38,034 bases of DNA from an uncultured Rhizobium sp. (GTDB taxonomy: Bacteria > Pseudomonadota > Alphaproteobacteria > Rhizobiales > Rhizobiaceae), in NCBI GenBank assembly GCA_945952245.1, contig CAMFHT010000005.1, positions 1-38,034 of the forward strand, read 5' to 3'. The notes under the pieces are model-generated. The model saw only the letters and a program-made list of their open reading frames with translations, did no database searches and had not been told where the DNA came from. The position numbers and the translations under genes were made by a program. Every line of letters starts with the position of its first letter. Position 1 is the stretch's first letter. Below are positions 7,174 through 14,596 of the stretch, piece after piece.

Positions 7174-7354
7174 ACGACCAAAATCCTGCTGCAGCGAACG
7201 GACTTTAGTCTGGCGCAGTGACATCAATAGGTCCGTCCCGGACAGGCAATGGTCCGTTTGGTCTCGACATCTCGATTACCCGCACAAGATATCCCTGTGA
7301 AGCCGAGGTCGCCGAGATCAACGCCCTGCTCGACCGCGATCGACGGCTTCTGAA

Positions 7355-7385
7355 ACCCCGCATCGCTCCCTGGGCGATGCGGGGT
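7355..7385 (+). terminator. Perfect 12-bp inverted repeat (possible terminator or structured element)
   Basis: ACCCCGCATCGC-TCCCTGG-GCGATGCGGGGT; no strong poly-T follows. Confidence 0.45.
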
Positions 7386-7482
7386 CGTTCATTGAGCCTC
7401 CGCTCATCTACCCCCTTCCCAACTGCCCGCTTCCCCGTTACCAACTCCGATAACACAGCCTGCCGCCGGCAGGGGCCACAGC

Positions 7483-9216
7483 GTGACGGTGATGGAAGAA
7501 AGCCTGCCCTTTTCTCAACAGCTTCGCCTGATGAACCGGGCCCTCAAATGGTCCGGCCATGGCAGGCGTGCGATTGGTCTGGTGACTGCAATTCTCGCGG
7601 TCATCCTGGCCACGGCCTATGGCCAGATCGTGCTGAACCAGTGGAACATCCCCTTCTACAACGCGATCGAGAACCGCGATGTCTCGGGCTTCATCGCGCA
7701 GCTGAAAATATTCGCACTGATTGCAGGCGCCCTGCTGGTCCTGAACGTCACGCAGACCTGGCTCGACAAATATCTGTCCCTGTCGCTGCGCGAAGGCATC
7801 AGCCGCGATCTCATCCGCCAGTGGATGACGGACCGGCGGGCTGTGCGCCTTGCAGATGCCGGCCAGATTGGCGTCAACCCCGACCAGCGCCTGCAGGAGG
7901 ATGCCGGCGTGCTCGCGGAGATGACCACCTCGCTCGGCATCGGCTTCATCCAGTCGGGTATCCAGCTCGCAAGCTTCGTCGGCGTCCTCTGGATGGTCTC
8001 CAGCGACTTCGTGCTCAGCTTTGGGGGCCGGAGCCTTGCGGTGCCGGGCTACATGGTCTGGGCAGCTTTCCTCTATTCCGGCATGGCTTCATTCCTGATC
8101 TGGCTCGTCGGCCACCGGCTGGCTGGGCTCAACGCCGAGCGCTATGCACGAGAGGCGGACTATCGCACAGCCCTGATGCGGACCAATGAACATCTCGTGG
8201 CGATTGCGCTCGCCCGTGGCGAAACGCGGGAGGAACGGTGGATCGAAGGCCGCTTCGACCGGCTGCTTGCGACCCTGACCGACATTATCGGCGCCCAGAT
8301 CGGTTTGAAATGGGTATCGGCAGGCTATGGCTGGGTATCGCAAGTCATGCCGATCATCATTGCCTCGCCCATCTATTTCTCCGGCAAGATCAGCTTCGGC
8401 GGGCTGATGATGGCCGTCAGCGCGTTCAATCACGTGATCTCGGCCCTGCGCTGGTACATGGACAATTTCGCGAGCATTGCCACCTGGCGGGCGACGCTGC
8501 TGCGCGTCTCCGCGTTCCGGCATGCTGTGGAGGAGATGGACCGCCAGTCCTCTGGCGAAGGGCAGCTTGTGCGGTTGACGGACGCTTCAGGCCGGATTGT
8601 TCTTTCAAACCTCGAGACCCGATCGAGCGGCGAGGGCGCCTCGGCCTTTTCCGGTGCCCGGATTGCCGGGGGTTCCGTGACCTTCGAACCGGGCGAACAC
8701 ATCCTCTTCAATGGCGACCGGACGGCCAATCATCGCAGCCTTTTCCTGGCGCTTGCCGGGCTCTCGCCCTCTGCCAGGGGCACCATCACCCTTCCGCCTG
8801 CGGAAAACATCATGTTCCTGCAGAAGGAAGCCTATCTGCCCGAGGGCACGCTTTGCGAAGTGCTGGCCTATCCGGGAGAGCCGGACATGACCAAGGCGAC
8901 GGACATGCAGGCGGCGCTGAAAAAGGTCGGGTTGGGAAGGCTGGAAGGCAGCCTCGACCAGGAAGCGCGCTGGCACAGGTTGCTGGAGGAGGACGACCGC
9001 ACCCGTCTGCTCTTCGCGAGCATCCTGGTGCAGCAGCCGTCCTGCCTGATCATGGAGGATGTGCTGGACGGGCTGGAGGAGGAGACGGCGCGCGAACTCG
9101 TGGAGGTGCTGCTTGCATCCGGGGCCCGCACAATCCTCTATTTCGGCCATTCGAACGTGTTCATCGAGAAGGCTTCACCGCGGGTGGTTCCATTGCAGAG
9201 ATCGAACGCCCTCTGA
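7483..9216 (+). CDS. COG4178/SbmA-BacA-like ABC transporter fused permease-ATPase with degenerate nucleotide-binding domain
   Basis: TM domain with NPDQRLQEDAGVLAEM motif; C-terminal NBD with degenerate Walker A (NGDRTANHRS), signature (LEEDDRTR) and Walker B (CLIMEDVLDGLE). Start GTG 7483 or ATG 7492. Confidence 0.8.
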   Translation: MTVMEESLPFSQQLRLMNRALKWSGHGRRAIGLVTAILAVILATAYGQIVLNQWNIPFYNAIENRDVSGFIAQLKIFALIAGALLVLNVTQTWLDKYLSLSLREGISRDLIRQWMTDRRAVRLADAGQIGVNPDQRLQEDAGVLAEMTTSLGIGFIQSGIQLASFVGVLWMVSSDFVLSFGGRSLAVPGYMVWAAFLYSGMASFLIWLVGHRLAGLNAERYAREADYRTALMRTNEHLVAIALARGETREERWIEGRFDRLLATLTDIIGAQIGLKWVSAGYGWVSQVMPIIIASPIYFSGKISFGGLMMAVSAFNHVISALRWYMDNFASIATWRATLLRVSAFRHAVEEMDRQSSGEGQLVRLTDASGRIVLSNLETRSSGEGASAFSGARIAGGSVTFEPGEHILFNGDRTANHRSLFLALAGLSPSARGTITLPPAENIMFLQKEAYLPEGTLCEVLAYPGEPDMTKATDMQAALKKVGLGRLEGSLDQEARWHRLLEEDDRTRLLFASILVQQPSCLIMEDVLDGLEEETARELVEVLLASGARTILYFGHSNVFIEKASPRVVPLQRSNAL

Positions 9217-9235: not shown

Positions 9236-9264
9236 AAAAAAGCCGCCTCGGAGGGCGGCTTTTT
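9236..9264. terminator. Bidirectional rho-independent terminator between convergent ABC gene and hemA
   Basis: AAAAAAGCCGCC-TCGGAG-GGCGGCTTTTT. Confidence 0.9.
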
Positions 9265-9285
9265 CGTTGTGTGTCCTGAAGTGCT

Positions 9286-10775: not shown

Positions 10776-11573
10776 TCAACGGGCAGCGGCGACCGCGCGC
10801 TTGGCCATGACCCGGACGAGGTTTGCCCGATACTCGGCACTGGCATGGAGGTCGGACAGAAGCTCCGAAGAGTCTACGGCTACGCCGGCAACCGCCTCTG
10901 CGGACCAATTGCCGGCAAGTGCCTGCTCCATGCCCTGATGCCGGAAGACGCCATCCGAGCCAGCGCCTGTCACGGCGACGCGCACGCCGCCGCCAGTCTT
11001 TGCAACGAACACGCCCGTCATCGCATAGCGCGAAGCCGGATTGGCGAACTTGGCATAGGCGGACTTCTCCGGCGCTTCGAAGCGGATTTCGGTGATGACT
11101 TCGCCCGCTTCCAACGCCGTGTCGAAGAGACCGGTGAAGAAATCGTCGGCTGCAATCTGCCGCCGGTCCGTGACGATGGTCGCCCCGAGGCCGAGCAGGC
11201 CTGCCGGATAATCCGCGGCCGGGTCGTTGTTGGCGATCGAGCCGCCGATCGTGCCGAGATGGCGGACATGGGGATCACCGATGCCGGCTGCGAGATCTGC
11301 GAGTCCCGGGCACACGGCCCGGAGTTCGCTTGACGACGCGACTTCCGCATGGGTGGCGGCTGCGCCAATGCGTACGGACCGTCCGGAAACGGAAATGCCC
11401 TTCATGGACGGGACGTGGCGCAGGTCGATCAGGTCGCTCGGCGCCGCGAGCCTCTGCTTCATTGTCGCAATCAGCGTCTGGCCGCCGGAGACGTATTTCG
11501 TATCGTCACCGGTTCCGGCGAGCTTCACCGCTTCGTCGACCGAGGAAGCGCGATGGTAGTTTGTCGCATACAT
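10776..11573 (-). CDS. coxM: FAD-binding subunit, xanthine dehydrogenase / form II CO dehydrogenase family (CoxM-like)
   Basis: MYATNYHRASSVDEAVKLAG; FAD motifs AAATHAEVASS and GTIGGSIANNDPAADYPA; start set at MYATNYHR. Confidence 0.85.
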   Translation of the reverse strand: MYATNYHRASSVDEAVKLAGTGDDTKYVSGGQTLIATMKQRLAAPSDLIDLRHVPSMKGISVSGRSVRIGAAATHAEVASSSELRAVCPGLADLAAGIGDPHVRHLGTIGGSIANNDPAADYPAGLLGLGATIVTDRRQIAADDFFTGLFDTALEAGEVITEIRFEAPEKSAYAKFANPASRYAMTGVFVAKTGGGVRVAVTGAGSDGVFRHQGMEQALAGNWSAEAVAGVAVDSSELLSDLHASAEYRANLVRVMAKRAVAAAR

Positions 11574-11587
11574 GGCTGTTCCTCCCC

Positions 11588-13933
11588 TTACTTTGCGGCG
11601 TTGAATGCGGCCCAGACCTTTTGCGGGGTCGCGGGCATGGACAGGTTGTTGTTGCCGATGGCATCGGTGATCGCATTGATCAGCGCCGGCGGCGATCCGA
11701 TTGCGCCCGCCTCGCCGCAACCCTTGATACCAAGCGGATTGCTCGGCGCGGGCGTGCACTGGTGCGAGAGCCTGAAGCTCGGAAGATCGTCCGCCCGGGG
11801 CATGGCATAATCCATGTAGGAGGCGGTGATCAGCTGGCCGTTGGTATCGTAGTGCACGCCTTCGAGCAGCGCCTGGCCGATACCTTGCGCGATACCGCCA
11901 TGCACCTGTCCCTCGACGATCATCGGGTTGATGATGTTGCCGAAGTCGTCGGCCGCAACGAACTGCACGACCTTGGTCTTGCCCGTTTCGGGATCGACCT
12001 CGACCTCGCAAATGTAGCAGCCGGCGGGGAAGGTGAAGTTGGACGGGTCGTAGAAGGCGCCTTCCTTAAGGCCGGGTTCCATGCCGGCGGGAAGGTTATG
12101 GGCGGTATAGGCGGCGAGCGCCACCTGGAACCAGGGCAGCGACTTGTCGGTCCCGGCAACCTTCAGCGTGCCGTTCTCGATCACGATGTCGCTTTCGTCC
12201 GCTTCCATCAGATGGGCGGCGATCTTCTTTGCCTTGGCCTCAACCTTTTCGAGTGCCTTGACGACAGCCGACATGCCGACGGCGCCGGAGCGGGACCCGT
12301 AGGTGCCCATGCCCATCTGCACCTTGTCGGTATCGCCGTGGACGATCGCGACGCTGTCGATCGGCACGCCGAGGCGTTCGGCAACGAGCTGGGCGAAGGT
12401 GGTTTCATGGCCCTGGCCATGGCTGTGCGAGCCGGTGAGAACTTCGATCGTGCCGACGGCATTGACGCGCACTTCCGCCGACTCCCAGAGGCCGACGCCG
12501 GCACCGAGCGAGCCGACCGCGGCGGACGGCGCGATGCCGCAGGCCTCGATGTAACAGCTCATGCCGATGCCGCGCTTCATGCCGCGCTTCTCGGCCTCCG
12601 CACGGCGGGCCGGGAAGCCGTCCCAATCCGCTTCCTTCATGGCCGCATCGAGCGAGGCGGCATAGTTGCCCGCATCATAGGTCATGATCACGGGCGTCTG
12701 GTACGGGAAGGTGCTGATGAAGTTCTTGCGCCGCAGCTCCGCCGGTGAAATGCCGAGCTCACGCGCCGCAGTCTCCATGGTCCGTTCCAGCACGTAGGTC
12801 GCTTCCGGACGGCCGGCTCCCCGATAGGCATCGACGGGCGTGGTGTTGGTGTAGACCGCACGCACGTTGCCGTAGATCGCGGGAATGGCATACTGGCCCG
12901 AAAGCAGCGTGGCATAGAGATAGGTCGGTGTCGCCGAGGAAAAGAGCGACATGTAGGCGCCGATATTGGCGATCGTGTCGACCTTCAGACCTGTGATGCG
13001 ATGGTTGCTGTCGAAGGCCATCTTCACCTTCGTCACATGGTCGCGGCCATGGGCATCGGTGAGGAAGGCTTCGGTGCGGTCGGCCGTCCACTTGACCGGG
13101 ACACCGGTGCGCTTGGACGCCCAGAGGCAGACGATTTCTTCCGGATAGATGTAGATTTTCGAGCCGAAGCCGCCGCCGACATCCGGCGCGATGACGCGCA
13201 GCTTGTGCTCCGGCGCCACGTTGTAGAAGGCGCTCATGACAAGGCGCGCCACATGCGGGTTCTGGCTGGTCGTGTAGCAGGTGTAGTGATCTTCCGCCGT
13301 ATCGTAGATGCCGAGCGCTGCGCGTGGCTCCATCGGGTTCGGCGAAAGGCGGTTGTTGACGATCTCGAGTTCGGTCACATGGGCCGCAGCGGCGATCGCC
13401 GCATCGGCCGCCGCCTCGTCTCCGAGGCCCCAGTCGAAGATGAGGTTGCCCGGCGCTTCCGGATGAACCTGCGGCGCCCCCGGCTTAAGCGTCTCGGCGG
13501 GAGAAACCACCGCCGGCAGCACGTCATAATCCACGGCAACGGCTTCCGCCGCATCGCGCGCCTCGGCAAGGCTGTCCGCCACGACCACGGCCACGGCATC
13601 GCCCACATAGCGCACGGTGTCTTCCGCGAGGGGACGCCATGCGCCCATCTTCATCGGCGAGCCATCCTTGGAATGGATCATCCAGCCGCAGATGAGATTG
13701 CCGATGCCATCGGCTTTCAACTGGTGCCCGTCGAGCACGGCGATGACGCCGGGCATGGTGAGTGCCGCAGACGCATCCATGCTCCTGATCTTCGCATGGG
13801 CATGCGGGCTGCGGATAAAATAGGCATATTTCATGCCCGGAACGACCATATCGTCGGTATACCGGCCCTTGCCGGTCAAAAAGCGCTTGTCTTCCTTGCG
13901 GGCAACGCGCGCACCAATGCCTTCAACACCCAT
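11588..13933 (-). CDS. coxL: Molybdopterin-binding large subunit, form II CO dehydrogenase-like (CoxL-like)
   Basis: AYRGAGRPEA motif (form II type), GGGFGSK, GQGHETTFAQ; start set at MGVEGIGARV. Confidence 0.87.
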   Translation of the reverse strand: MGVEGIGARVARKEDKRFLTGKGRYTDDMVVPGMKYAYFIRSPHAHAKIRSMDASAALTMPGVIAVLDGHQLKADGIGNLICGWMIHSKDGSPMKMGAWRPLAEDTVRYVGDAVAVVVADSLAEARDAAEAVAVDYDVLPAVVSPAETLKPGAPQVHPEAPGNLIFDWGLGDEAAADAAIAAAAHVTELEIVNNRLSPNPMEPRAALGIYDTAEDHYTCYTTSQNPHVARLVMSAFYNVAPEHKLRVIAPDVGGGFGSKIYIYPEEIVCLWASKRTGVPVKWTADRTEAFLTDAHGRDHVTKVKMAFDSNHRITGLKVDTIANIGAYMSLFSSATPTYLYATLLSGQYAIPAIYGNVRAVYTNTTPVDAYRGAGRPEATYVLERTMETAARELGISPAELRRKNFISTFPYQTPVIMTYDAGNYAASLDAAMKEADWDGFPARRAEAEKRGMKRGIGMSCYIEACGIAPSAAVGSLGAGVGLWESAEVRVNAVGTIEVLTGSHSHGQGHETTFAQLVAERLGVPIDSVAIVHGDTDKVQMGMGTYGSRSGAVGMSAVVKALEKVEAKAKKIAAHLMEADESDIVIENGTLKVAGTDKSLPWFQVALAAYTAHNLPAGMEPGLKEGAFYDPSNFTFPAGCYICEVEVDPETGKTKVVQFVAADDFGNIINPMIVEGQVHGGIAQGIGQALLEGVHYDTNGQLITASYMDYAMPRADDLPSFRLSHQCTPAPSNPLGIKGCGEAGAIGSPPALINAITDAIGNNNLSMPATPQKVWAAFNAAK

Positions 13934-13971
13934 GATTTCCTCCCAATGGGGTATCTGGTGAAACCTCTTCG

Positions 13972-13989
13972 GCCGGCCAACGGGCCGGC
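13972..13989 (-). other. Intercistronic inverted repeat between coxS and coxL
   Basis: GCCGGCC-AACG-GGCCGGC. Confidence 0.5.
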
Positions 13990-14003
13990 TCAAGCAATCG
14001 GGT

Positions 14004-14492
14004 TCATTCGGCGGCCTGACGGCCCGGCTGCATGGCGTCTGCTGCCGACAGCACTGATTTCACGATGTTGTGGTAGCCGGTGCAGCGACAGATATTGCCC
14101 TCGAGGCCATGACGGACATCCTCTTCCGTCAGCGAGGTGCCCTTGCTGTTGATGAGATCGACCGCAGTCATCACCATGCCCGGCGTGCAGAAGCCGCATT
14201 GCAGGCCGTGATGTTCCTTGAAGGCTGCCTGCACGGGGTGCAGTTCACCGTTCTGGGCAAGCCCCTCGATGGTGGTGATGCTGGACCCGGAGGCCTGCAC
14301 GGCCAGGATCGAACAGCTCTTGATCGACTTGCCGTCCATATGGATGACGCAGGCGCCGCACTGGTTCGTGTCGCAGCCCACATGCGTTCCGGTAAGCCCC
14401 AGTTTGTCACGAATAAAATGAACCAGCAGCGTGCGCTCCTCGCACTCGCCACTGACTGTCCGGCCGTTCACCGTCAGTGTCACTTTCGCCAT
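14004..14492 (-). CDS. coxS: (2Fe-2S)-binding small subunit (CoxS-like)
   Basis: [16 protein letters not shown] and [10 protein letters not shown]...[12 protein letters not shown] two-cluster motifs; start set at [10 protein letters not shown]. Confidence 0.9.
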
Positions 14493-14596
14493 ATTGTTCC
14501 TCCTCGCGCCCCTCCCGGGCACGAGGGCATCATTTGTCTTTTTACGACGAGTATCAACACTAACTTTTGTAGGAGGTGTTTTTTTGTCATGACGAC

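Follow-up and report, generated by a model that had tools for sequence, protein, structure and literature searches.

The 577-aa protein encoded by an uncultured Rhizobium sp. at positions 7483 to 9216 on the forward strand of the window (the whole stretch of 38,034 nucleotides analyzed here) is an ExsE-family (COG4178/YddA-type) ABC half-transporter with a strongly degenerate nucleotide-binding domain (NBD). The explanation that best accounts for the observations as a whole, and that we hold with moderate confidence, is a pseudo-NBD docked on an ATP-independent ExsE half-transporter, representing one stage of a family series. We give an even chance to the broader proposal that the ExsE family is a living series from ATP-driven to ATP-free transporters. 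In this series, the ATPase motifs would have been lost in order while a docked pseudo-NBD was kept (as NGDxxxNR in one large clade), the NBD would then have been deleted independently at least two times, and the coupling helix would have relaxed only after deletion. The series would be separate from SbmA/BacA, with an energy source other than the glutamate ladder of SbmA.

Gene organization and genomic context

The gene is an intact open reading frame starting with GTG at 7483 (an ATG at 7492 is a possible alternative start). The codon-position GC of both its halves matches that of the neighboring dxr and hemA genes, and the uninterrupted frame of 577 aa given in a preliminary description is confirmed. 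The transmembrane domain (TMD; residues 27-356, TM1-TM6; 7561-8550, +) has the ABC_membrane_2/SbmA_BacA fold according to Pfam and the AlphaFold2 helices. It contains a first cytoplasmic loop (coupling region 1; residues 116-140; 7828-7902, +) with an NPDQRxxED motif, in which 12 out of 12 conserved positions are kept. The pseudo-NBD follows at residues 363-572 (8569-9198, +) and is supported by homology, selection and predicted fold. Pfam recognizes the membrane half only (ABC_membrane_2, 111 bits; SbmA_BacA, 81 bits), with no ABC_tran match even at E-values up to 10. The NBD half alone nevertheless has Rv1819c of Mycobacterium tuberculosis as its best match (E 7e-14), in agreement with the earlier assignment of the C-terminal domain as an NBD homologue. 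An alignment of the whole protein with Rv1819c spans residues 62-532. With an NBD homologue behind its ABC_membrane_2 TMD, the protein has the architecture expected of the ExsE family.

The gene is located between dxr and hemA, an arrangement that is shared only with a sister genome of the same genus (G002, locus L058). The sister species G003 and G004 lack exsE, and their dxr and hemA genes directly adjoin each other (loci L295 and L297), which indicates an accessory gene that was either recently gained or repeatedly lost at this site. The neighborhood was considered as a clue to the substrate and rejected, since the order dxr-exsE-hemA is limited to the genus. An inverted repeat rich in G+C and flanked by runs of A and T lies between the gene and hemA (9238-9265, no strand assigned) and is terminator-like by eye. 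The exsE gene marks an insertion or deletion site in the genus and is preceded by a stretch of 300 bp (7174-7482). Beyond hemA, the window contains three reverse-strand genes (10776-14522) encoding a molybdopterin dehydrogenase of the xanthine dehydrogenase/CO dehydrogenase type. The same assembly also carries a second dxr-like gene with 59% identity (G000, contig C162, 8054-8989; L299), possibly on a contaminating contig.

Assignment to the ExsE family

Homologue searches covered 398 Rhizobiaceae genomes, 398 genomes of the order and a number of named genomes, and yielded 240 unique homologues. On pSymB of Sinorhizobium meliloti, the orthologue lies between two sets of genes, one comprising exsH, a PAS-domain gene and a gene for a response regulator, and the other queE, queD and queC. 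Based on the published exs gene order, we take this orthologue to be ExsE. It shares 46% identity with the 577-aa protein over 93%, and both group together in the TMD tree, with YddA, the canonical relatives and BacA falling outside. This places the 577-aa protein in the ExsE class of Smith et al. 2025 (PMC12003926).

Degenerate ATPase motifs

Motif comparison shows a degenerate Walker A, NGDRTANHRS (8710-8739, +), with K417 changed to His, a degenerate ABC signature, LEEDDRTR (8983-9006, +), and a degenerate Walker B, LIMED (9046-9060, +), with D525 changed to Glu and the catalytic E526 to Asp. These three losses had been described before and are all upheld. The Q-loop glutamine, in turn, had been described as retained, but this was due to a misalignment: in the sequence MFLQKEAY, Q447 occupies the Pro column, one column ahead of the Q-loop Gln, and the Q-loop column itself is Lys448 (8821-8826, +), while relatives read (P)Q-x-x-Y with the Gln three residues before the Tyr. 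The H-loop region YFGHSN (9139-9156, +) does contain the His that had been reported (His556). Because the surrounding clade with a dead Walker A mostly has Arg in this column, His556 probably represents a secondary R-to-H change and not a relic. The protein thus has neither the Walker A lysine, the LSGGQ signature, the Walker B Asp-Glu pair nor the Q-loop Gln of a functional ATPase. Judged from these motifs, the pseudo-NBD would no longer bind or hydrolyze ATP productively, a claim included in the moderate confidence given to the explanation as a whole. Some residual nucleotide binding is conceivable, and degenerate sites of heterodimers are able to bind ATP. Decay limited to one protein, or a sequencing artefact, was rejected as an explanation: a protein of the same genus (L002) also lacks the lysine and the signature, and more than 100 relatives lack the lysine.

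Order of motif loss in the family

All trees were built from the TMD only, and a second, careful tree contained 70 rows. The ExsE family forms one clade, with SbmA/BacA as a separate and distant clade. According to parsimony on the TMD tree, the signature glycine and the H-loop His disappeared early, close to the family base (three changes each). Losses of the Walker A lysine, in contrast, number at least about eight, either alone or with the whole domain. The clade of dead-Walker-A representatives to which the 577-aa protein belongs has 100/100 support in the 70-row tree. In one large clade of Rhizobiaceae, which includes Rhizobium and Agrobacterium, GxGKT has become NGDxxxNR. This motif is fixed in 109 sequences (27 of them non-redundant), in which N410, G411 and R417 are invariant (100%) and position 416 is either Asn or Asp. 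The 577-aa protein and L002 both belong to this clade, and both have His instead of the motif Arg. The orthologues share the lost motifs. The closest ones (57, 53, and 52% identity) are non-canonical and so withstand the check on Walker A/B named in the preliminary description, and GxGKT is found only in more distant members of the family.

The Pfam ABC_tran score declines in parallel, from 72 bits in the basal L250 to 43 bits in L223 (GxGKT type) and 17.7 bits in L066 from Agrobacterium, with no match in L002 and the 577-aa protein. The ratio of NBD to TMD divergence increases in the same order and is 1.14 for canonical transporters, 1.50 for basal members, 1.58 for the GK type, 1.88 for the NR type and 2.13 for the pair formed by the 577-aa protein and L002. 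Altered Walker A motifs (GSAH, GFGG/GSGG, GQQH, TETQR, GIDR, and GVDG) also occur in other ExsE lineages, specifically L236, L237, L240, L241, L243 (family f16), L181/L248, L183/L185, L163/L170/L007, L173/L175/L180, and L184, where the changes apparently occurred independently of the NGDxxxNR clade.

The constancy of NGDxxxNR could have a different meaning, namely that the protein is a cryptic ATPase or a ligand-binding regulator, in which the remodelled pocket (NGDxxxNR and YxGR in the clade) would bind another nucleotide or a phosphorylated ligand and regulate the TMD. The most conserved NBD positions of the clade do include residues from what was once the nucleotide pocket, some of them clade-specific (N410, R417, Y553). 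The 577-aa protein, however, has lost R417 and R556 and keeps only N410 and Y553, and we consider such a function improbable for it.

Relatives without an NBD

Several genera encode clean TMD-only ExsE genes of 339-385 aa, a status that was set by gene length and independently of the tree. No NBD remnant was found near these genes, and no free NBD of the ExsE type was found elsewhere in the TMD-only genomes searched, where NBDs reach no more than 35% identity and the best-matching ones are part of full-length transporters. The TMD-only genes form two groups, group A among the GxGKT members and group B in the dead-Walker clade that also holds the 577-aa protein. Group B adjoins the pair of the 577-aa protein and L002 in the best tree, with support of 94/70 for the sister relation, 97/88 for the nine-row set and 100/100 for the whole clade, although the long branches of this group (L202) call for caution about the exact sister relation. 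A single origin of the TMD-only genes is rejected (p-AU 0.0005, 70-row tree). The whole NBD was thus deleted independently at least two times within ExsE.

Assembly frameshifts as the source of the TMD-only genes were rejected, since these apply only to L186, L260, and L267, while the others end cleanly. In these three ExsE copies, the NBD sequence continues in another frame, and they represent recent pseudogenes or assembly errors. In a fold comparison, the model of a TMD-only protein has a TM-score of about 0.47 to SbmA and to ABC structures alike. In genome G115, a full-length 580-aa ABC_membrane_2 transporter (contig C11, 23.0-24.6 kb) is encoded about 12 kb from an NBD-less ExsE.

Probable docking, predicted fold and selection of the pseudo-NBD

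The AlphaFold2 model of the 577-aa protein has a mean pLDDT of 89, with the NBD mostly at 86-97 in blocks of 10 residues, and its best PDB match is Rv1819c (TM-score 0.79), with ABCD1 also resembling it. We should note that the input alignment included canonical relatives, which pull the model towards the canonical fold. Docking was assessed with the seven residues of cytoplasmic loop 2 (coupling helix 2; residues 229-252; 8167-8238, +) that are conserved in at least 80% of the NBD-bearing family members. The 577-aa protein and L002 both keep seven out of seven, TMD-only group A keeps two to four and TMD-only group B none. Elsewhere in the TMD, conservation stays at about 81-94% in all of them, and the contrast with loop 2 gives Fisher p values from 1e-2 to 6e-6. 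Conservation of loop 1 in group B is 68%. A separate coupling helix is present in the model of the 577-aa protein (residues 238-243) and absent in the lower-confidence model of L199. Since the coupling helix is gone in the NBD-less relatives but kept in the 577-aa protein, the pseudo-NBD is probably still docked on the TMD. The kept coupling helix 2 could also point to a regulatory rather than a transport role.

Between the 577-aa protein and L002, dN/dS is 0.51 for the NBD (95% 0.32-0.74) and 0.19 for the TMD (0.13-0.26), which are rough values from the Nei-Gojobori method at a synonymous divergence of about 1.2. The pseudo-NBD is thus under relaxed but real purifying selection and, together with the intact predicted fold, this agrees with the earlier view of divergence and not recent pseudogenization. 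The alternative is a gene that is decaying and on its way out, with relaxed selection, reduced or no transport and an NBD that has gained no new role. Such decay would fit an NBD that evolves faster than the TMD, the loss of the clade-conserved W428, G431, and H570 in the 577-aa protein, the accessory nature of the gene in the genus and the frameshifted copies elsewhere in the family. It is at odds with a frame that is intact in two diverged species of the genus, with the dN/dS of the TMD and the upper bound for the NBD, with the fully conserved coupling helix and with a dead motif that is constant across many species of the clade. We therefore regard decay as unlikely.

Relation to SbmA/BacA

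In the preliminary description, the protein was seen as a possible BacA-like, ATP-independent intermediate that keeps a structural NBD. The structural NBD and the probable ATP independence remain part of the best reading, but descent in the BacA line was rejected on the basis of the tree and the missing glutamate ladder. SbmA/BacA form a clade separate from ExsE with a support of 100 in the TMD tree. The ladder of SbmA consists of six glutamates, E193, E203, E269, E276, E287, and E378 (PMC13316013), and the 577-aa protein has E, T, N, E, N, and T at these positions. The two kept glutamates (equivalents of E193 and E276) are also present in canonical ATP-driven relatives. A gained acidic residue was not found in the NBD-less ExsE groups, and neither these groups nor the 577-aa protein have the SbmA ladder, so that proton coupling gains no positive support from these residues. 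Further traits of SbmA/BacA are absent as well: these are TMD-only proteins with TM0 helices and lost coupling helices, while the NBD of the 577-aa protein is present and predicted to be folded. In addition, the genome carries its own true BacA (L289), with 60% identity to E. coli SbmA.

A proton-driven importer similar to BacA/SbmA, which would move peptides along with protons through the glutamate ladder and keep a structural NBD, would be in line with the SbmA_BacA match of the TMD, with the two kept glutamates and with the ExsE of Phyllobacterium, which partly complements the gentamicin phenotype of an S. meliloti bacA mutant (PMC12003926). The same Phyllobacterium protein, however, gives little or no NCR247 complementation (PMC12003926), four of the ladder positions are Thr or Asn, and the separate clade and the resident BacA also argue against such an importer, which we consider quite unlikely. 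A more fitting description of the 577-aa protein is that of an intermediate on the way to a separate, independent NBD-less lineage inside the ExsE family.

Search for a partner half-transporter

Heterodimeric exporters commonly have degenerate NBDs (PMC7756269), and the 577-aa protein might be the non-catalytic half of a heterodimer in which an intact half-transporter supplies the ATPase sites, as in TAP or TM287/288. No intact partner was found: among ABC_membrane_2 (PF06472) proteins, the sister genome G002 (100% complete) and the assembly with the 577-aa gene (G000; 77% complete, 3.6% contamination) encode only the type of the 577-aa protein and BacA, and G189 and G119 each encode one other, BacA-sized protein. 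A partner acting in trans was rejected on the basis of the complete sister genome. Known heterodimeric exporters, moreover, usually keep the Walker A lysines on both halves, while the lysine is destroyed here. A heterodimer is thus very unlikely.

Proposed mechanism and implications

We propose that the 577-aa protein is a half-transporter that probably acts as a homodimer and has kept a folded cytoplasmic pseudo-NBD, docked on the TMD via coupling helix 2. The pseudo-NBD would serve as a scaffold or gate for dimerization and alternating access. ATP independence is likely, and transport may be powered by the gradient of the substrate itself or, via residues outside the SbmA ladder, by an ion or proton gradient. 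The ABCD and ExsE annotations are what suggest hydrophobic or acyl compounds as substrate. In the proposed family series, a canonical ABC transporter would first have lost the signature and the H-loop, then the Walker A lysine and finally the NBD, with relaxation of the coupling helix.

According to a proposal from 2026, a YddA-like ABC transporter gave rise to the proton-driven SbmA family by losing its NBD and coupling helices (PMC13316013). The only hints of intermediates in that study are split genes; it mentions a TMD gene of Rhizobium that has no NBD next to it, but not ExsE (PMC13316013). Degeneration of ExsE NBDs was not found described in the literature outside subscription journals. 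ExsE adds many intermediates, along with two more NBD deletions that occurred independently and can be compared with NBD-bearing relatives. With these natural pairs, both the sequence of events and the source of energy become testable. The 577-aa protein may thereby show a stage in how an ATP-driven pump turns ATP-free. Throughout Rhizobium and Agrobacterium, the annotation ‘ABC transporter ATP-binding protein/permease’ may cover proteins that are not ATPases.

Comparison with known systems

S. meliloti ExsE belongs to the same orthologous family as the 577-aa protein and shares its TMD-NBD architecture and its place in the tree. ExsE copies of the S. meliloti type have lost the LSGGQ signature and the H-loop His but keep Walker A (GxGKT) and the Walker B DE, whereas the 577-aa protein also lacks Walker A and has an altered Walker B pair. 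Rv1819c (6tqe) and ABCD1/ABCD4 are the best sequence and fold matches across most of the length of the protein, yet they carry canonical ATPase motifs, and Rv1819c has only about 21% identity in the structural alignment. The heterodimeric TM287/288, TmrAB, and TAP resemble the 577-aa protein in their degenerate NBD motifs. They differ in having an intact partner site and in usually still binding ATP, while the 577-aa protein has a destroyed Walker A and no encoded partner.

SbmA/BacA (SLiPT) have a TMD related to that of the 577-aa protein, and both departed from YddA-like ABC transporters. They nevertheless form a separate clade, and the 577-aa protein has an NBD and a coupling helix but no glutamate ladder. 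Finally, MsbA without its NBD still transports in the laboratory, driven by ΔpH (PMC4979069). This construct provides a precedent for ATP-free transport by the TMD of an ABC exporter, although it is an artificial truncation, whereas ExsE is an evolved lineage.
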